From an uncultured Roseicyclus sp. (GTDB taxonomy: Bacteria; Pseudomonadota; Alphaproteobacteria; Rhodobacterales; Rhodobacteraceae): DNA of 64,000 bases. This document shows positions 50,149-57,604 of this stretch, in pieces. Every line of letters starts with the position of its first letter. Position 1 is the first letter of the stretch. Made by a program: the position numbers and the translations under genes. The stretch is from NCBI GenBank assembly GCA_947491935.1, contig CANLLF010000004.1, forward strand, positions 248,001-312,000, in the 5' to 3' direction. Under the pieces are notes generated by a model, which was not told where the DNA came from, made no database searches, and was given only the letters and a program-made list of their open reading frames with translations.

Positions 50149-50580
50149 AGGGGCGCGCTCCGGGCGTTGGTTCATGGGACCCTAGCCCGCCGCCGCCGCC
50201 CTGACCACGCGAAAAGGCCCGCCCCGGCAACGGGATGGGCCCGCAATATGCAGGGCTGAACCGTCAGGTGGCGCGGCGGCGCAACTGGGCCAATTCACCA
50301 CGACCCGCCGGCAACAGCGGAAGGCCCGCGGAACGCGGCACAGGCGATGGATCCGCCACACGCGGATCGATCCAGCGGCTGGGACTCCCGGCAAACCGAA
50401 GCCGTTGAAATCCGCGACGTCAGACCTGCTGGTCACGTTGCCGACGGCGGCGCGCCCGGCCAAGCCACAGCGCCTTCCGAACGGCTTCTGGTCGTGCGCC
50501 CGCCCCCCGGGGGTGCCGAAACGGCCGGTTCGCGTCATACTGCATATGCGGTAGGACGGTCGTTAACGCGGAGTGCTAAG
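50149..50580. other. 432-nt divergent region without a clear gene
   Basis: The region between the LOG gene and the LuxR-hydrolase gene contains no frame with convincing homology. Open frames on both strands here have weak codon structure. A near-palindromic 20-bp motif at 50536-50555 and a GGAG ribosome binding site at 50570 precede the regulator. The first 200 nt are very GC-rich. Confidence 0.45.
50536..50555. promoter_or_regulatory. 20-bp dyad upstream of the LuxR-hydrolase gene
   Basis: CATACTG-CATATG-CGGTAGG is an imperfect dyad. It shares 16 of 20 positions with the perfect inverted repeat at 53253-53272 (CATACTG-TATTTG-CAGTATG), which lies upstream of the neighbouring transthyretin-like gene. 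The size and symmetry fit a LuxR-type binding box, 26 bp before the GTG start of the regulator. It may be an autoregulatory site. Confidence 0.5.
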
Positions 50581-52332
50581 GTGGCTCACACCTCAACAAA
50601 GCCCATTGGGCGGCGGTTCATGTCCGACAAACTGAATGCCGTGGTTGAGGCCGCGGCCTCCGATCCTTTCAAGTTCGATGAGCTTGTTGCCACGTGGAAC
50701 CACGTCTTCGAAAATGAATCCCTCGCCGCCGTGACGCCCGAGCTGGATCGCGCTGTCGACACTGCCTTGATGGCGATCAATTCGGCCGAGGACAGCGACG
50801 TGATCGGCCCCCGCCTGCGCCAATTGCTCAACGCCATGCCCCATTCCAGTTTTGCGGTGCGCGCCGACGGGATCGTCACGGCGATGAACGAGATGGCGAT
50901 GGGGCGGCTCGATTTCGATCCGGGCGATCATGTCGATACGATTGGCTACGGGCTGGATCGCGCCGAACCGCTGGGGGCCGTCATCCGGCGCGCGCTGGAT
51001 CCGCGCAACAACGCAGGCGGCGAGGTTGCGCTCCACAAGGCCGTGCATCTGGACACCGACCGCTCCGCCACGCTCGCGGTGATCCCGTCGATGGATGGCG
51101 ATGAGGGTGCGCGCAGTGCCCTGGTGTTCATCATCGATCCGGTCTGGCGTGCCGATGTGGCCGCTTTGATGATGCGGGCCTACCAGTTGACGGAGGCGGA
51201 GGCGGAAGTTCTGGCCGCCTTTCTGGAAGGGTATGACCTGCGGGAGATCGCGGCCATGCGCGAAAGGTCCCCTGCGACGGTCCGCACCCAGTTCCAGACC
51301 ATCATGAACAAGGCCGGGGCCTCGTCACAGGCCGAGCTGATGCGCAACACGCTCGCGATTTCGCAATTCTTTCAGGATGTCGAGCCGGTGGCCCAGGTCG
51401 CCAGCCACCCCTACCGCAAACGGTTCGACCTCCTCGGCGCAGGCGGCCGCGGGATCGACGTCACGCTGGCCGGAGATCTGTCGGGCCGGTTGGTCGTCTA
51501 CATCCCCGACACGACGCAATGCCTGTTCCCCGCCGCCGTGGAGGCGCGGTTTCACGCCGCGGGCCTCTGCGTCGCCAGCCTGTGCCGCCCCGGATGCGGC
51601 CGCACGGATCCGCCAGCTTCCGGGCAGGATTACAATGCCTGCCTCGCTGCAGATATCCGGACGCTGCAAAACCAGTTGGGCAGCGACCGTGCGGTTCTCT
51701 GGGCGCACAACACCTCCTCGACCTTCGCCTATGCCGTGGGCGGGCTGATCCCCGACCACCTGAGCCGGATCGTCATCCAGTCCACCCTGGTGCCCGCGCC
51801 GTTCTTCGATGCCACCAAGGTCCGCTCGCCTTGGGTTGCCGCGCTGATGCGGGCGATCCACAAGTCACCGGGCATGTACCGGCTGGTGATCCGTGCCGCG
51901 ATCCGCGCCTGGAAGGCGATGGGCACGCGGCGGCTCTTTGCGATGCAATTGCGCGGGCATGAGCCCGATGTGACCACCGCCACGACGGCGGAAAACGTGG
52001 CCGAATTCGACCATGCCGTGCGGACGTGCCTGGCCCAGGGGTTCGATTATGCGGTTGTGGCCTTCGATCATGCGATGCGGGATTGGTCCGATTGGGTGCA
52101 CGCCTGCCCCGTGCCCATCGAGTTGATCCAGGGCCGTCACGACGGCATCTCGAATATCGAGACCGCGCGCGCCTTTGCGGCGGCGTTCCCGAAGAAACTG
52201 ACGCTGACCGAGATCCACGATGGCGGCTATCTCACGATCCTCACCCATACGGATATCGTTCTGGAATGCCTTGGGCGCGCCGCCGCGCCCAAGGCGACCG
52301 AGCCTGCGCTCAGGCCGGTGGCACCAGCTTGA
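50581..52332 (+). CDS. LuxR-type regulator fused to an inactive-looking alpha/beta-hydrolase domain
   Basis: A 583-residue fusion protein. Residues about 70-190 are PAS-like (LRQLLNAMPHSSFAVRADGI). A LuxR-type helix-turn-helix lies at about 200-262 (YQLTEAEAEVLAAFLEGYDL, then ERSPATVRTQFQTIMNKAGA). The C-terminal part is an alpha/beta-hydrolase fold. Its nucleophile motif, normally GHSxG, reads AHNTS, so the serine is Asn377. The acid Asp521 remains (GRHDG), and the base is replaced by Tyr550 (HDGGYLTIL). It is likely a ligand sensor, not an enzyme. The GTG at 50581 has GGAG 7 nt upstream; an ATG at 50620 is possible. Confidence 0.8.
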   Translation: MAHTSTKPIGRRFMSDKLNAVVEAAASDPFKFDELVATWNHVFENESLAAVTPELDRAVDTALMAINSAEDSDVIGPRLRQLLNAMPHSSFAVRADGIVTAMNEMAMGRLDFDPGDHVDTIGYGLDRAEPLGAVIRRALDPRNNAGGEVALHKAVHLDTDRSATLAVIPSMDGDEGARSALVFIIDPVWRADVAALMMRAYQLTEAEAEVLAAFLEGYDLREIAAMRERSPATVRTQFQTIMNKAGASSQAELMRNTLAISQFFQDVEPVAQVASHPYRKRFDLLGAGGRGIDVTLAGDLSGRLVVYIPDTTQCLFPAAVEARFHAAGLCVASLCRPGCGRTDPPASGQDYNACLAADIRTLQNQLGSDRAVLWAHNTSSTFAYAVGGLIPDHLSRIVIQSTLVPAPFFDATKVRSPWVAALMRAIHKSPGMYRLVIRAAIRAWKAMGTRRLFAMQLRGHEPDVTTATTAENVAEFDHAVRTCLAQGFDYAVVAFDHAMRDWSDWVHACPVPIELIQGRHDGISNIETARAFAAAFPKKLTLTEIHDGGYLTILTHTDIVLECLGRAAAPKATEPALRPVAPA

Positions 52333-53164
52333 TCTTCAGGTCGACCATCGGCACCAGAACCTCCATCGGGCCGGTCATCCCGCCGCTCTCTTGCTCGACC
52401 TCGACCCTGTAGCCCAGCGCCACGGCCAAGAGGATCGCCACGCCCAGCGTCATCAGGAAGACGCTGGCGGCAAACGCCATGGGCGCCGCCACGAACAGGA
52501 TGAATATGATGGCGACATTCGCGATCAGCACCTCGACGGCCGGGTTCACCTGGAGGGTTTCGCTATTCGGATCAATGCCGATCATGCTGCAAGCGATCTC
52601 GCGCATCGCAGCATAATCGAGCGCGCCGTTCTTGAACGGCATCTTCGCGCCCGCCGGAAAGGCATCGGAAAACCGGATGGTGATGGCCGTGCCGGCCTCA
52701 GCGAGATCCTTGATCTTGGTCCAGATCTCATCGGGGCTGTCATTCAGGCGGATCGACGTGCCGTTGATGTTCATGATCTCCGGAAGGGCCGGGGCGGCGC
52801 CTTGCCACGGCACCACCAGCGGCACCTCGACCGCGTCACTGACATAGGGAAACGGGCCGGTCATGGTCTGGCCAGTGGCCGGGTCCTCGATGCTCATCAT
52901 GAATATGGGCAGGTCGGTCGGGTCGGGTGTGGTCACGCGGCCGCCGAACGGCAGACGCACGGTCTTGGTATCCTGCCAGTCCTTCGCCGCGCGGCGGTTG
53001 AAACGCCCGGCGGAATTGGCGGTTGTGGAGACAAGCGTATCATCGCCCGACACGTCGTCGTCCCAGATGCGTATCTTCGCACCGGCGACGGGCTGATTGG
53101 CACCGCCGGGGCCGGGAACATAGGTCACACGACCACGGAAACGGGGTTTTGGGGGAATAGCCAT
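52310..53164 (-). CDS. Transthyretin-like membrane-anchored hypothetical protein
   Basis: A 284-residue protein. The N-terminal part resembles transthyretin-like beta-sandwiches (VAGAKIRIWDDDVSGDDTLV, then STTANSAGRF), and no signal peptide precedes it. Two hydrophobic helices lie near residues 210-255 (VEVLIANVAIIFILFVAAPM and FLMTLGVAILLAVALGYRV), followed by a soluble tail. I do not recognise a defined family. The stop overlaps the 3' end of the LuxR-hydrolase gene by 23 nt, and a 20-bp dyad lies about 90 bp before its start, suggesting control by that regulator. AGAGGA precedes the ATG. Confidence 0.6.
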   Translation of the reverse strand: MAIPPKPRFRGRVTYVPGPGGANQPVAGAKIRIWDDDVSGDDTLVSTTANSAGRFNRRAAKDWQDTKTVRLPFGGRVTTPDPTDLPIFMMSIEDPATGQTMTGPFPYVSDAVEVPLVVPWQGAAPALPEIMNINGTSIRLNDSPDEIWTKIKDLAEAGTAITIRFSDAFPAGAKMPFKNGALDYAAMREIACSMIGIDPNSETLQVNPAVEVLIANVAIIFILFVAAPMAFAASVFLMTLGVAILLAVALGYRVEVEQESGGMTGPMEVLVPMVDLKIKLVPPA

Positions 53165-53249: not shown

Positions 53250-53275
53250 GCGCATACTGTATTTGCAGTATGCGC
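53250..53275. promoter_or_regulatory. Perfect inverted repeat between the transthyretin-like gene and dapD
   Basis: GCGCATACTG and CAGTATGCGC are exact 10-bp inverted complements around TATTTG. It lies 86 bp before the start of the transthyretin-like gene (minus strand) and 71 bp before dapD (plus strand), in their shared upstream region. The inner 20 bp resemble the dyad before the LuxR-hydrolase gene. It looks like an operator more than a terminator, since no T run follows on either strand. Confidence 0.65.
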
Positions 53276-53345: not shown

Positions 53346-54173
53346 ATGTCCAACGCCGCACTCGAGTCCGCCATCGAAGCCGCGTGGGAGGCCCGCGATA
53401 CGATTACCCCGGCCACCAAAGGGGAGACCCGCGACGCCATCGAAGACACGCTGAACGCGCTGGATGGCGGCGCGCTGCGCGTCGCGGAGCGTCAGGACAG
53501 TGGCGCGTGGCACGTCAACCAATGGGCCAAGAAGGCCGTGCTACTGGGCTTCCGGCTCAAGGACATGGAAATGCAGGGCGGCTCGGCCCAGGGCGGCAGC
53601 TGGTGGGACAAGGTCGATAGCAAATGGAAGGGCTGGGGCGTGAATGAATGGGGCGCCGCGGGCTTTCGCGCCGTGCCCAACTGCATCGTCCGCCGGTCCG
53701 CCTATATCGCGCCCGGCGTGGTGCTGATGCCGTCTTTCGTGAACCTTGGCGCCTATGTCGACAGTGGCACGATGGTCGACACATGGGCCACCGTCGGCTC
53801 CTGCGCGCAGATCGGCAAGAACGTGCATCTGTCGGGCGGCGTCGGCATCGGCGGCGTGTTGGAGCCGATGCAGGCGGGCCCCACCATCATCGAAGACAAT
53901 TGCTTTATCGGCGCGCGCTCCGAGGTGGTCGAAGGCTGCATTGTCCGCGAAGGCTCCGTGCTGGGTATGGGGGTGTTCATCGGTCAATCCACCAAGATCG
54001 TGGACCGTGAGACGGGTGAGGTCATGTATGGCGAGGTGCCGTCGGGCTCCGTTGTCGTGGCAGGCTCGATGCCGTCGAAGAACGGAGTCAACCTCTACTG
54101 CGCGGTGATCGTGAAGCGGGTGGATGAGCGGACCCGGTCAAAGACGTCGATCAACGAGTTGTTGCGCGACTGA
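53346..54173 (+). CDS. dapD: Tetrahydrodipicolinate N-succinyltransferase DapD
   Basis: A 275-residue enzyme that transfers succinyl from succinyl-CoA to tetrahydrodipicolinate in the succinylase branch of lysine synthesis. The N-terminal helical domain ([20 protein letters not shown]) is followed by a left-handed beta-helix made of hexapeptide repeats, such as [20 protein letters not shown] and [20 protein letters not shown]. The C-terminus ends [24 protein letters not shown] lies before the ATG. Length is normal. Confidence 0.97.
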
Positions 54174-54617: not shown

Positions 54618-54989
54618 ATGACCCGATCAAAAGAAAAACGCGCATCCGCCGTCTACACGCTGCTTGTCCAGGTGGGCCGCAAGGCCGATGACGGATTGCC
54701 CGATGGCGCCACCGGCGCGGGCCTGTTGTGCTTCGCCGCCGGCGTGGATGAGGCCGAGGCCGTCCGCGAAACCGTGGCCGTCCTGAAACAGGCCGATCTC
54801 GCGCCGCTCGATGTCACCGGATATGGCACGTTGGAGGAGCGCGTGGCGCAGGGGGATGAGATCAGCGACGAAGAGCGCGGCCTCATGGACCGCGCGCGGG
54901 CCGAAAACGCCGTTATCGTGGTGCAGATGACGCCGTTCTTCGATGATGGCGCGGCAAACGCCGCTACGCCGCCCGCGACGCAGCCGTAA
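54618..54989 (+). CDS. Hypothetical protein, 123 residues
   Basis: A mixed alpha/beta protein (VYTLLVQVGRKADDGLPDGA and ENAVIVVQMTPFFDDG) with a run of charged residues between. The ATG at 54618 is chosen; upstream open frame to 54576 lacks a ribosome binding site. I do not recognise a family. Its stop overlaps the 3' end of the Hint-domain gene on the other strand by 26 nt. It lies between dapD and dapE. Confidence 0.6.
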   Translation: MTRSKEKRASAVYTLLVQVGRKADDGLPDGATGAGLLCFAAGVDEAEAVRETVAVLKQADLAPLDVTGYGTLEERVAQGDEISDEERGLMDRARAENAVIVVQMTPFFDDGAANAATPPATQP

Positions 54990-56013
54990 CCAGCGCCCGG
55001 GCCGTGGCCCGGTCCAGAAGCGGCAGGGACGGCGACAGGTCCCGCGCCACCGGTGCGGCCGTCCGGCTGATCCGCGGCCCGCCCTGGGCCAGCACATCGC
55101 CCAGATGCGCGGTTTCGATGGGACAGCGTTCCACCCGGATACAAGTCGGGTCGTCCAGCATCATGTGGTAGAACACGCGCATCGGTTCGGTACGGTCGCG
55201 CTGCACGGCACGCCCCGTCATCAGATCGACGGCTTTGGCCAGAACCGCCTCCGTGCCGCACAAGTAATCCACCACCGGGCCGGTCTGCAAAAGCCGCGTC
55301 TGCGGCGTGACCACAAGGTTGCGGGCCAGCCCGAAATAGGGCGCGCGCAGCCGGATCGGGGCCATGCGCCCAAGGCTCAGCCGCGGCCGCGCCTCGATCC
55401 AGCGCAGCGGATGGGCGTCACCCTCGGCATCCAGGATCAGGTCACCGGGTCGCAGGACATCGACAGGGCGGGGCCCCTCGGGCGTGTCGACCAATGCGCC
55501 GCTTTCAACACCGGGCAGATCGGCCGCAGGCACGGCGGAGGACGCAACGGCGGCCACATGGGCGATGGACAGGAACCCGCTGACCCGTGGCAAGGCTTCG
55601 GCCAGCGTCGCGATCCGGGCGAGGCCGGAATGCAGGATCTCCGTCCGATCCTGATCGTAATTGGTAACCTCGAACACCTCCGCGCGCCCTTCCGAGCAGC
55701 AGATGTAGCGAATGCCGACCGTCTCGCCGGGGCGCATCATCTGTGGCCCGGTGATCAGGTCGATCTCGCCGTGCACCAGCCGCAGCGCGCCACCCGGCAT
55801 CAGGTACAGGCCAATCCCCTCGCCGCCATCGGATCCGCCCTGCCAGAGGCGCAGCGGGATCTCCCGCAACGGCAGGCCGCGCCCGCGCTTGGGGACCGGG
55901 CGCTGCGGCCCCATCACTTCGAGCTTCAGGGTCAGCGCGCGAAGCGGCGCATTGCAGGCCGTCGGTGGCGCCCGATGCGTGCGCCCGTCACTCCAGATCG
56001 CTTGCCATGTCAT
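54964..56013 (-). CDS. Hint-domain protein lacking the usual catalytic cysteine
   Basis: A 349-residue protein. After an N-terminal region of about 170 residues it has a Hedgehog/intein (Hint) domain: GALVDTPEGPRPVDVLRPGD, then HPLRWIEARP, APYFGLARNLVVTPQTRLLQ and the end HLGDVLAQGG. Hint domains start with a Cys that begins self-cleavage, normally in a PCFxxGT motif. Here the segment reads LPGVESGALV, with no cysteine at that place. It may be a non-cleaving variant. It is in tandem with a second Hint protein 13 nt away that does have PCF. Confidence 0.75.
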   Translation of the reverse strand: MTWQAIWSDGRTHRAPPTACNAPLRALTLKLEVMGPQRPVPKRGRGLPLREIPLRLWQGGSDGGEGIGLYLMPGGALRLVHGEIDLITGPQMMRPGETVGIRYICCSEGRAEVFEVTNYDQDRTEILHSGLARIATLAEALPRVSGFLSIAHVAAVASSAVPAADLPGVESGALVDTPEGPRPVDVLRPGDLILDAEGDAHPLRWIEARPRLSLGRMAPIRLRAPYFGLARNLVVTPQTRLLQTGPVVDYLCGTEAVLAKAVDLMTGRAVQRDRTEPMRVFYHMMLDDPTCIRVERCPIETAHLGDVLAQGGPRISRTAAPVARDLSPSLPLLDRATARALVTAASRAA

Positions 56014-56026
56014 CGTCCGTGCCCCG

Positions 56027-57604
56027 TCAATGCAGCATTGCGCGGGCCTCATAGGCGCGCAGCGGCATACGGGCGGCGGGCCCATAGCCTTGTTTCGTAT
56101 CGGGGTCGATCTCCGGGAACAGAGTCAGAACCTCGTCGCGAACCGCCTCGTCCAGATCGTTGAGAACCGTGGGGCCGGGCAGGAAGCTCTCGGTTGCGAG
56201 ACCTTCGGAAAAGACAAGCTGGTGCTGATCGAACAGGACGTGGAAATAATCGACATCCCCGCCGCTCAGCACCCGAACCGAGCAATCGTTGACCAGGTCC
56301 TTGGCCGCCACCAGAACCTCCTCTTCGCCGAACATCAGTTCCGCCATCCAATGGGTCAGCAACACGCGATGCTGCGGCGAGACTACAAGGCGGCGATGCA
56401 TCCCGAACGTGCCCGCTTCGATCGCCACCGGTGCAAACCGCCCATCGGCCGGCACCGTCCGCGACCCGATCCAGCGGATCGGCTGCAAGCCGTTGTCGCG
56501 GGTCTCGATCAGATCACCCGCCCGCAACTCCTCCACCGGCCTTTCGCCCCGCTCGGTCAGGATCATCGTGCCGCGCACGAAACACGGGATCGCGGTGATG
56601 GTGACAAAGGCCGTGTCGGTGATCCCGGTTCCGTCATCGGCGGTATAGGTGAAGTTGATGGTTTCCGGTTCGGTCAGGTTGGTCTGGCTGGCCGGCGCGA
56701 CCACCTGAAGCTCGCCGTTCGGCAACAGGGTGATCTCGTGCCCCGAACTGAGCGTCACCGTGTCGTTGGGGTTCACCTCGATCCCGTTGACATGGGTGAT
56801 GAACGCCACCCCGCCCGAGGTCGGATCATTGGCCAGCACGTCAATCGCGGTGACGAAACCCTCGTAATAGGTGTGCACGTCGTCTTGGGCGATAAACTCG
56901 CCCTGAATGGAATCCGCCGCGATCAGAACGGCGGAATCGTAGGAGCTGTCGCCGACATCGGCGATGCCGATCTGGATGTTGTTCTCTATCCCCGCATTCA
57001 CCGGCATCACCAGGGTGAGCGTCACGGTGAAGCCGTCCATCTCGGTGTTGTAATCGTCGTTCGTGTTGTTGTTGAACAGCGTCTCGTTTTCGTCTTGGTT
57101 GACCGAGTTGATCTGCGTGACGTTCACCACCGGCGATGTCACCAACTGGCCATTTACCCAGACGCCGAAGATGTCGTTGTAGATGGAACCGGTATATTCC
57201 GGGTATTCCTCCGATGCGAAGGTGAACTGCATCGTGATGAAGTCGGTTGTCGGGATGAAATCGATGTCGAGGTAGCTGGCATCATAGGTATTGGTGCCCG
57301 CCGCCGCGTTGAAATCCGCGTTGTTGTTCTGCCCCGACGTATTGGTCGAGGTGCCGGTGGATCGGTTCGGATCACCGTTTGATTGGGTGATGTGGCTGGC
57401 GCGGCCGGTGGACAGGATCACACCGGTATCCGACGGCGTCAGGCTGCCCGCAACGGCGTCGCCATTGGTGTAGACGCCCGAGGATTGGCTCCACCCCGAA
57501 TAGCTGGCATCGGTCACCGTCACCCCGGGACCGAAGATCGTGTTGGCCATCAGCAGCGCTGAGGCGCCTTCATTGATTGGTAGTTCGTCACCCGTCGCCG
57601 GCAT
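56027..57604 (-). CDS. Choice-of-anchor L/Hint-domain surface protein
   Basis: A 525-residue protein. The N-terminal half resembles choice-of-anchor L adhesin-like proteins (NTIFGPGVTVTDASYSGWSQ, FTFASEEYPEYTGSIYNDIF), followed by an Ig-like or cadherin-like segment (VTLSSGHEITLLPNGELQVV). The C-terminal part is a Hint domain with the catalytic cysteine (IPCFVRGTMILTERGERPVE, RAGDLIETRDNGLQPIRWIG, RRLVVSPQHRVLL). Such proteins may be cleaved or processed after secretion. No signal peptide is evident, so a type I or other secretion route is likely. The Ala- and Asn-rich middle suggests a surface location. Confidence 0.8.
   Translation of the reverse strand: MPATGDELPINEGASALLMANTIFGPGVTVTDASYSGWSQSSGVYTNGDAVAGSLTPSDTGVILSTGRASHITQSNGDPNRSTGTSTNTSGQNNNADFNAAAGTNTYDASYLDIDFIPTTDFITMQFTFASEEYPEYTGSIYNDIFGVWVNGQLVTSPVVNVTQINSVNQDENETLFNNNTNDDYNTEMDGFTVTLTLVMPVNAGIENNIQIGIADVGDSSYDSAVLIAADSIQGEFIAQDDVHTYYEGFVTAIDVLANDPTSGGVAFITHVNGIEVNPNDTVTLSSGHEITLLPNGELQVVAPASQTNLTEPETINFTYTADDGTGITDTAFVTITAIPCFVRGTMILTERGERPVEELRAGDLIETRDNGLQPIRWIGSRTVPADGRFAPVAIEAGTFGMHRRLVVSPQHRVLLTHWMAELMFGEEEVLVAAKDLVNDCSVRVLSGGDVDYFHVLFDQHQLVFSEGLATESFLPGPTVLNDLDEAVRDEVLTLFPEIDPDTKQGYGPAARMPLRAYEARAMLH

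Follow-up and report, generated by a model that had tools for sequence, protein, structure and literature searches.

The window (the whole 64,000-nucleotide stretch of DNA that was analysed) carries a gene for a LuxR-type regulator, P0001, a convergent orphan gene and dapD, together with two palindromes, one upstream of the regulator gene and the other between the orphan gene and dapD. The features, with the basis of each in brackets, are as follows.

50533..50558, no strand: candidate operator, imperfect 26-bp palindrome CGTCATACTGCATATGCGGTAGGACG, upstream of the regulator gene (repeat search)
50620..52332, plus strand: regulator coding sequence, P0001 (open frame; start by fit to the family N-terminus)
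50845..51135, plus strand: PAS-like domain, residues 76–172 (strand/helix order in the AlphaFold model; Pfam in relatives)
51184..51345, plus strand: LuxR/GerE helix-turn-helix, residues 189–242 (Pfam GerE)
51415..52284, plus strand: alpha/beta-hydrolase domain, residues 266–555, with a helical cap at 404–495 (Pfam, AlphaFold, Foldseek)
51505..51510, plus strand: P296-D297 at the position of the oxyanion-hole HG (alignment columns)
51709..51711, plus strand: N364 at the catalytic serine position, within AHNTS (model, HMMER, hhalign)
52141..52143, plus strand: D508, the acid, kept (alignment, hhalign)
52228..52230, plus strand: Y537 at the catalytic histidine position (alignment, model, hhalign)
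52310..53164, minus strand: orphan gene, 284 aa, convergent with the regulator, possible target (frame; no Pfam/NCBIfam match)
53250..53275, no strand: second candidate operator, near-perfect palindrome GCGCATACTGTATTTGCAGTATGCGC (between the orphan gene and dapD; kept in the close relative L004)
53346..54173, plus strand: dapD (tetrahydrodipicolinate N-succinyltransferase), possible target (Pfam)

The P0001 frame is open as far as the stop at 52332 and codes for 570 aa when read from the ATG at 50620. This ATG, from which residues are numbered here, is the tentative start, preferred for its better fit to the N-terminus of the family; translation may instead begin at GTG 50581, which is in frame and follows closely on a GGAG. 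The protein is laid out as a PAS-like domain, a LuxR-type helix-turn-helix in mid-protein and an alpha/beta-hydrolase domain. The Pfam GerE match (residues 189–242) stands just over its cut-off (23.7 vs 23.5 bits), and Abhydrolase_1 matches residues 323–535 with 46 bits (cut-off 25.8). The AlphaFold model, computed with 102 family sequences as input (mean pLDDT 90.1, pTM 0.83), consists of an N-terminal helical part, the PAS-like domain (76–172), the helix-turn-helix, a long helix (237–261) and a capped alpha/beta-hydrolase. Among the best 50 of 1876 Foldseek matches of this model, the top PDB entry was the hydrolase 9wlv (E = 5.7e-14), and the others included proline iminopeptidases, dehalogenases, C-C hydrolases, epoxide hydrolases and esterases. 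An alpha/beta-hydrolase fold C-terminal to a LuxR helix-turn-helix had been proposed in a preliminary description of this DNA, and Pfam, AlphaFold and Foldseek bear it out.

By its fold and cap (Pfam, model and Foldseek) P0001 belongs to the alpha/beta-hydrolase superfamily, by its GerE domain to the LuxR/GerE regulators, and by the order of its three parts and its full-length alignment to a family of PAS-LuxR-hydrolase fusions. It lacks the N-terminal autoinducer-binding domain of LuxR quorum-sensing receptors and has a PAS-like fold there instead; neither an autoinducer-binding nor a receiver domain was among its six Pfam matches at E ≤ 1. Pfam gave no PAS match in P0001 itself, and of the 10 relatives scanned L008 had a PAS_4 match above cut-off, L005 and L018 each a sub-threshold one to PAS. 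The domain is called PAS-like here on the strength of the strand/helix order predicted by the model and of the PAS_4 match in L008. It was absent from the preliminary description, and may serve as a further sensor of the protein, or indeed as its principal one.

The catalytic site of the hydrolase domain has been replaced at three places. At the nucleophile, AHNTS occupies residues 362–366; in the model, strand 358–363 stops just before helix 364–376, which puts N364 at the nucleophile elbow. The acid, Asp508, lies within QGRHDG. Y537, in HDGGYLTIL (533–541), comes after strand 527–532. A HMMER comparison with PDB 9wlv paired the elbow of P0001 with GWSGGG and its C-terminal loop with GHL, and hhalign of the 102-row family alignment against 19 intact stand-alone hydrolases placed N364 on Ser and Y537 on His (probability 100, E = 3e-46). 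The oxyanion column holds H in 14/14 and G in 13/14 stand-alone sequences, H in 65/103 and G in 39/103 fused rows that have lost the triad, and P296-D297 in P0001. An active enzyme of this superfamily has a Ser, Asp or Cys nucleophile, an acid and a His; P0001 has N364, D508 and Y537. The motif AHNTS in place of the nucleophile motif, the Tyr in place of His and the retained acid Asp had all been read from the letters beforehand, and each reading stood: neither the model nor alignment to active hydrolases restored a Ser or a His at the site. The altered oxyanion motif adds to those earlier readings. We conclude that the loss of the catalytic triad in P0001 is real and confirmed. A non-catalytic reading of the domain is favoured because Ser, His and the oxyanion HG are all gone. 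His533 was considered as a hidden catalytic histidine and rejected as a replacement base, because it is Pro in L004 (98% identical) and Glu in L005.

P0001-like matches (E ≤ 1e-10) were found in 90 of 394 genomes of the same family, its own included, and nearly all are fusions of the full architecture; the match in G130 spans the helix-turn-helix alone. Profile searches recovered full-length relatives in a minority of the other families of the class and also in f188 and f237 outside it. The G130 and G233:C260 matches and several other profile matches stand outside the relative set, L079 (short) was left out of the 102-member alignment of fused proteins (A1), and L189 (partial) out of the extended set. 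Adjacent duplicate fused regulators occur in single genomes (L074, in two copies, and L108/L115). The PAS-HTH module (residues about 40–260) is also found without a hydrolase domain in many reading frames of the class, mostly of about 350–460 aa.

In the 102 aligned members the His column holds His in nine (5 S-D-H, 2 D-D-H, 1 D-N-H and 1 D-S-H) and Gln in 72. The preliminary description had called for relatives that keep or lose Ser and His; S-D-H was found in 12 of 149 fused domains and in 19/19 fetched stand-alone relatives (of 26 listed), the fused count being scored from three alignment columns only, in which some long-branch rows align poorly and the partial L181 was counted as lost. The stand-alone relatives had been chosen by profile score, blind to the triad (14/20 and 5/6 fetched). 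Gln is the commonest state at the His position of the 149 fused domains (77), and the acid Asp is kept in 125. The replacements form recurring types. The G-D-Q group has its elbow remade as G-x-D, with D at position 366 in 41 of its 42 members, a position not among the columns by which those members were defined. P0001 belongs to neither of the common types, G-D-Q and M-D-Q; N-D-Y, its own, was seen in three sequences only, P0001, L004 and L005, two of which are nearly identical. With an active site altered yet conserved across related fusions, the domain is probably a chemical sensor and not an enzyme.

The same counts bear on whether the domain might still be an enzyme, using an unusual (e.g., Asn- or Asp-based) mechanism with turnover coupled to regulation. 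A Ser, Cys or Asp nucleophile together with His is present in 21/149 fused domains, some of which may be enzymes. An Asp nucleophile with His is known from dehalogenases or epoxide hydrolases, and this pair is kept in L090, L092, L093, L096, L112–L114 and L167; part of the fusion family may on these residues be enzymes of another kind. P0001 itself has kept only the acid, Asp508; nucleophile, general base and oxyanion HG are absent together, and the nearest His (533) is lost even in L004. For P0001 we therefore hold a concealed enzymatic activity to be very improbable.

Trees were computed without the triad columns. The 130-row tree takes 4 changes between intact and lost to explain these states, and has the fused S-D-H row L116 among the stand-alone proteins. 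The 160-row tree, from which L181, L134, L120, L190, L191, L182, L183 and L085 had been dropped, needs at least 9 state changes and has the stand-alone proteins on one side of a weakly supported branch (support 65); many of its inner branches are weak, with 56/157 open. P0001, L004, L005 and L006 form a clade with support 100, in which L006 reads G-N-A and the other three N-D-Y; the branch of P0001 is divergent. A count of changes in a tree carries no direction; we read the changes as mostly losses because every stand-alone protein examined is intact. Loss of the triad thus probably happened repeatedly, though the history of the family may also include regained triads or repeated fusion. An origin from an enzyme is drawn from the S-D-H triad of all the stand-alone relatives fetched (19 of the 26 listed), and we infer from these comparisons the order of descent: enzyme first, then non-catalytic fusion domain.

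Loss of catalysis might also be a sign that a fused enzyme is decaying into a relic. The regulator gene is present in only 2/13 genomes of the genus, and the divergence of its branch would fit decay. Against this, one close pair, P0001 and L004, gave dN 0.0102 and dS 0.192 for the whole gene (dN/dS about 0.05) and dN 0.0062 and dS 0.148 for the hydrolase domain (dN/dS 0.04). The L005 ortholog, 54–55% identical, has a full-length frame and the synteny of the window: it is flanked on one side by a LOG-family-like gene, itself next to another gene, and on the opposite side by dapD, neighbours named by their likeness to the window genes. Judged by these substitution rates, P0001, its hydrolase domain included, is under purifying selection. 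Decay is disfavoured because of the low dN/dS and the synteny kept in L005, and we consider it extremely improbable.

A different role for an intact but non-catalytic domain is protein interaction or dimerisation, the PAS-like domain sensing and the old pocket binding nothing specific. Non-catalytic alpha/beta-hydrolase folds serve as interaction proteins in neuroligins and NDRG. The presence of a PAS-like domain, the many PAS-HTH modules without a hydrolase domain and a below-cut-off Ndr match in L008 all fit such a role. A scaffold would not obviously need the acid Asp kept in 125/149 domains, nor Gln at the His position in 77/149. P0001 and L005 share the identical stretches YIPDTTQC, AHNTSS, LIQGRHD and DGGY, of which the first two also speak against an interaction module, though fixed windows of ±3 residues at the four site positions gave 21/28 identities against 54% overall, weakly above background; on this result the argument from conserved loops is weak. 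We regard interaction as the main rival, unlikely and still to be taken seriously. The earlier proposal, of a sensor for a hydrolase-like ligand that may be a lactone or ester, gains in part from the non-catalytic site, the purifying selection and the large family with conserved replacements, as expected of a receptor derived from an enzyme; ligand binding itself, with allostery, autoregulation and targets, is what we infer for P0001. On the sequence evidence, a dead hydrolase acting as sensor is favoured above decay or a hidden enzyme.

The second palindrome lies 2.7 kb from the first, and the upstream site (50533–50558) differs by 3 mismatches from the strict 22-mer used in searches. An exact copy of the strict 22-mer is confined, among 384 family genomes, to that of the window, and a copy with up to 1 mismatch occurs in 37/384, the places of the matches having been examined in the window's own genome only. 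At this same tolerance 2/13 genomes of the genus have it, exactly the two that have the regulator; these (G000 and L004) are close relatives whose sites are not independent and count as one event. The palindrome core ATACNGCANNNGCNGTA is also present upstream of the L005 ortholog, some 41 bases from its start; the second palindrome was not found in L005, which has the upstream copy only. With up to 1 mismatch the core occurs at 6 places (9 strand hits) in the 4.65-Mb genome, one of them the second palindrome, compared with 46 for a reversed control. This core, shorter than the 22-mer, when allowed up to 2 mismatches gave 6 matches in the whole window against 2.45 expected, a number reached by 7 of 100 shuffles. 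The shuffle result, the 3 mismatches of the upstream site and the single copy in L005 weigh against an operator. Across 101 upstream regions of family members, each with one shuffle, 21 palindromes with 9 or 10 of 10 arm matches were found against 8 in the shuffles. One operator-like match, C5:21690, lies inside a reading frame, which we take to be acyl-CoA dehydrogenase-like, and was set aside as probably due to chance.

From its position and recurrence in sequence, the GCATACNGNANNNNCNGTATGC palindrome is a likely operator of P0001. We give only a little less than an even chance to the palindromes belonging to another regulator, the targets of P0001 then lying elsewhere. Such a reading gains from the near identity of the G000 and L004 genomes that hold the sites, from a genome-wide search for a wider regulon (22-mer with up to 3 mismatches) that gave 68 matches against 74 for the reversed control and hence no excess, and from the family upstream regions, none of the 101 showing a shared or similar recurring palindrome sequence. 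The exact co-occurrence of 22-mer and regulator in the genus and the core upstream of the L005 ortholog argue for P0001 as the cognate regulator.

The orphan protein has a hydrophobic stretch near its C-terminus and no relatives in 383 other family genomes at E ≤ 1e-8; compared with L004, its gene nevertheless gave a low dN/dS (dN 0.0047, dS 0.123). No hint of a ligand came from the gene neighbours in 22 neighbourhoods (20 fetched loci, L005 and the window), for which Pfam assignments were made from 10 representative neighbours. Neighbouring recN and bamD are common to L142, L144, L146, L147 and L148, with lpxC too in four of them, beside a gene that we take to be ftsZ; L145, from another clade, lies near genes for a MATE exporter and PPK2, and L138 near a gyrase-B-type gene. 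Further along the window, the minus-strand neighbours 54964–56085 and 56027–57604 presumably carry a Hint-like stretch, the second having CFVRGTMI..GERPVEELRAGD. Elsewhere in the window's genome, two frames are above the Pfam cut-off for autoinducer synthase (LuxI), C1:1244735-1245187 and, barely, C1:35827-36060; neither is linked to the regulator.

Taken together, we consider it reasonably probable that P0001 is a cytoplasmic one-component regulator that uses a non-catalytic hydrolase domain as a small-molecule sensor and acts through a palindromic operator. In such a protein the PAS-like N-terminal and alpha/beta-hydrolase C-terminal domains would flank the LuxR-type helix-turn-helix, the latter domain having been derived from an active serine hydrolase and now serving as a binding module. 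A small molecule would enter the old substrate pocket beneath the helical cap and not be turned over; a shift of the cap or of the domain position would be passed through helix 237–261 to the helix-turn-helix and alter DNA binding, and a PAS signal could act together with the ligand-bound hydrolase domain. The operator would be represented by the imperfect copy upstream of the regulator's own gene and by the near-perfect copy between the orphan gene and dapD. The candidate operator would then offer a basis for a reporter assay in a ligand search.

A wider reading is tentative, the balance leaning somewhat against it: the family may be an undescribed large proteobacterial radiation of DNA-bound alpha/beta-hydrolase receptors, begun by fusion of a working enzyme and followed by many independent catalytic losses, in which the old site diversified, as G-D-Q, M-D-Q, N-D-Y and further types, to bind a range of small molecules. 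Such a radiation would parallel, in bacteria, the plant hormone receptors of this fold. If true, natural enzyme-to-receptor transitions would be displayed in one tree with intact stand-alone and partly intact fused relatives (12/149 S-D-H), and the step from catalysis to sensing would be testable through comparison of siblings. There would also be a class of intracellular receptors besides the AHL receptors, in a bacterial family with many marine members.

The PAS-LuxR-hydrolase fusion family was not found described in the openly licensed papers of PubMed Central, a collection outside which most subscription papers lie and in which other wordings would be missed; the portion of PMC3466318 seen contains no word starting with 'hydrolase'. 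P0001 shares the GerE helix-turn-helix with LuxR/GerE regulators and differs from them in its central position, in the C-terminal alpha/beta-hydrolase and in having no AHL-binding or receiver domain by Pfam. The stand-alone hydrolases related to 9wlv, its best structural and profile match, have the same fold and cap; the 19 stand-alone relatives align along the P0001 hydrolase domain, and theirs is S-D-H whereas that of P0001 is N-D-Y without the HG. No protein named GID1, D14/DAD2, KAI2 or RsbQ was among the best 50 of 1876 Foldseek matches.

The preliminary comparison with plant receptors holds in part. According to PMC3531792, GID1 is a non-catalytic gibberellin receptor thought to have been derived from a hydrolase through loss of the active-site His, and it keeps Ser and Asp, both of which contact the hormone. 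P0001 has lost His as GID1 has, but it has lost Ser as well, and it thus departs from the GID1 pattern of a lost His with Ser and Asp retained; it is, moreover, bacterial and fused to a DNA-binding domain. DAD2/D14 and KAI2 also use the alpha/beta-hydrolase fold in signalling, DAD2 with an intact triad (PMC3531792) where P0001 has lost its own. The LuxR helix-turn-helix, the PAS domain and hydrolase-derived receptors such as GID1 are thus known parts; the three-part fusion family, undescribed in the papers searched, appears to be new, and the palindrome that recurs upstream of the regulator and beside dapD is a new observation.
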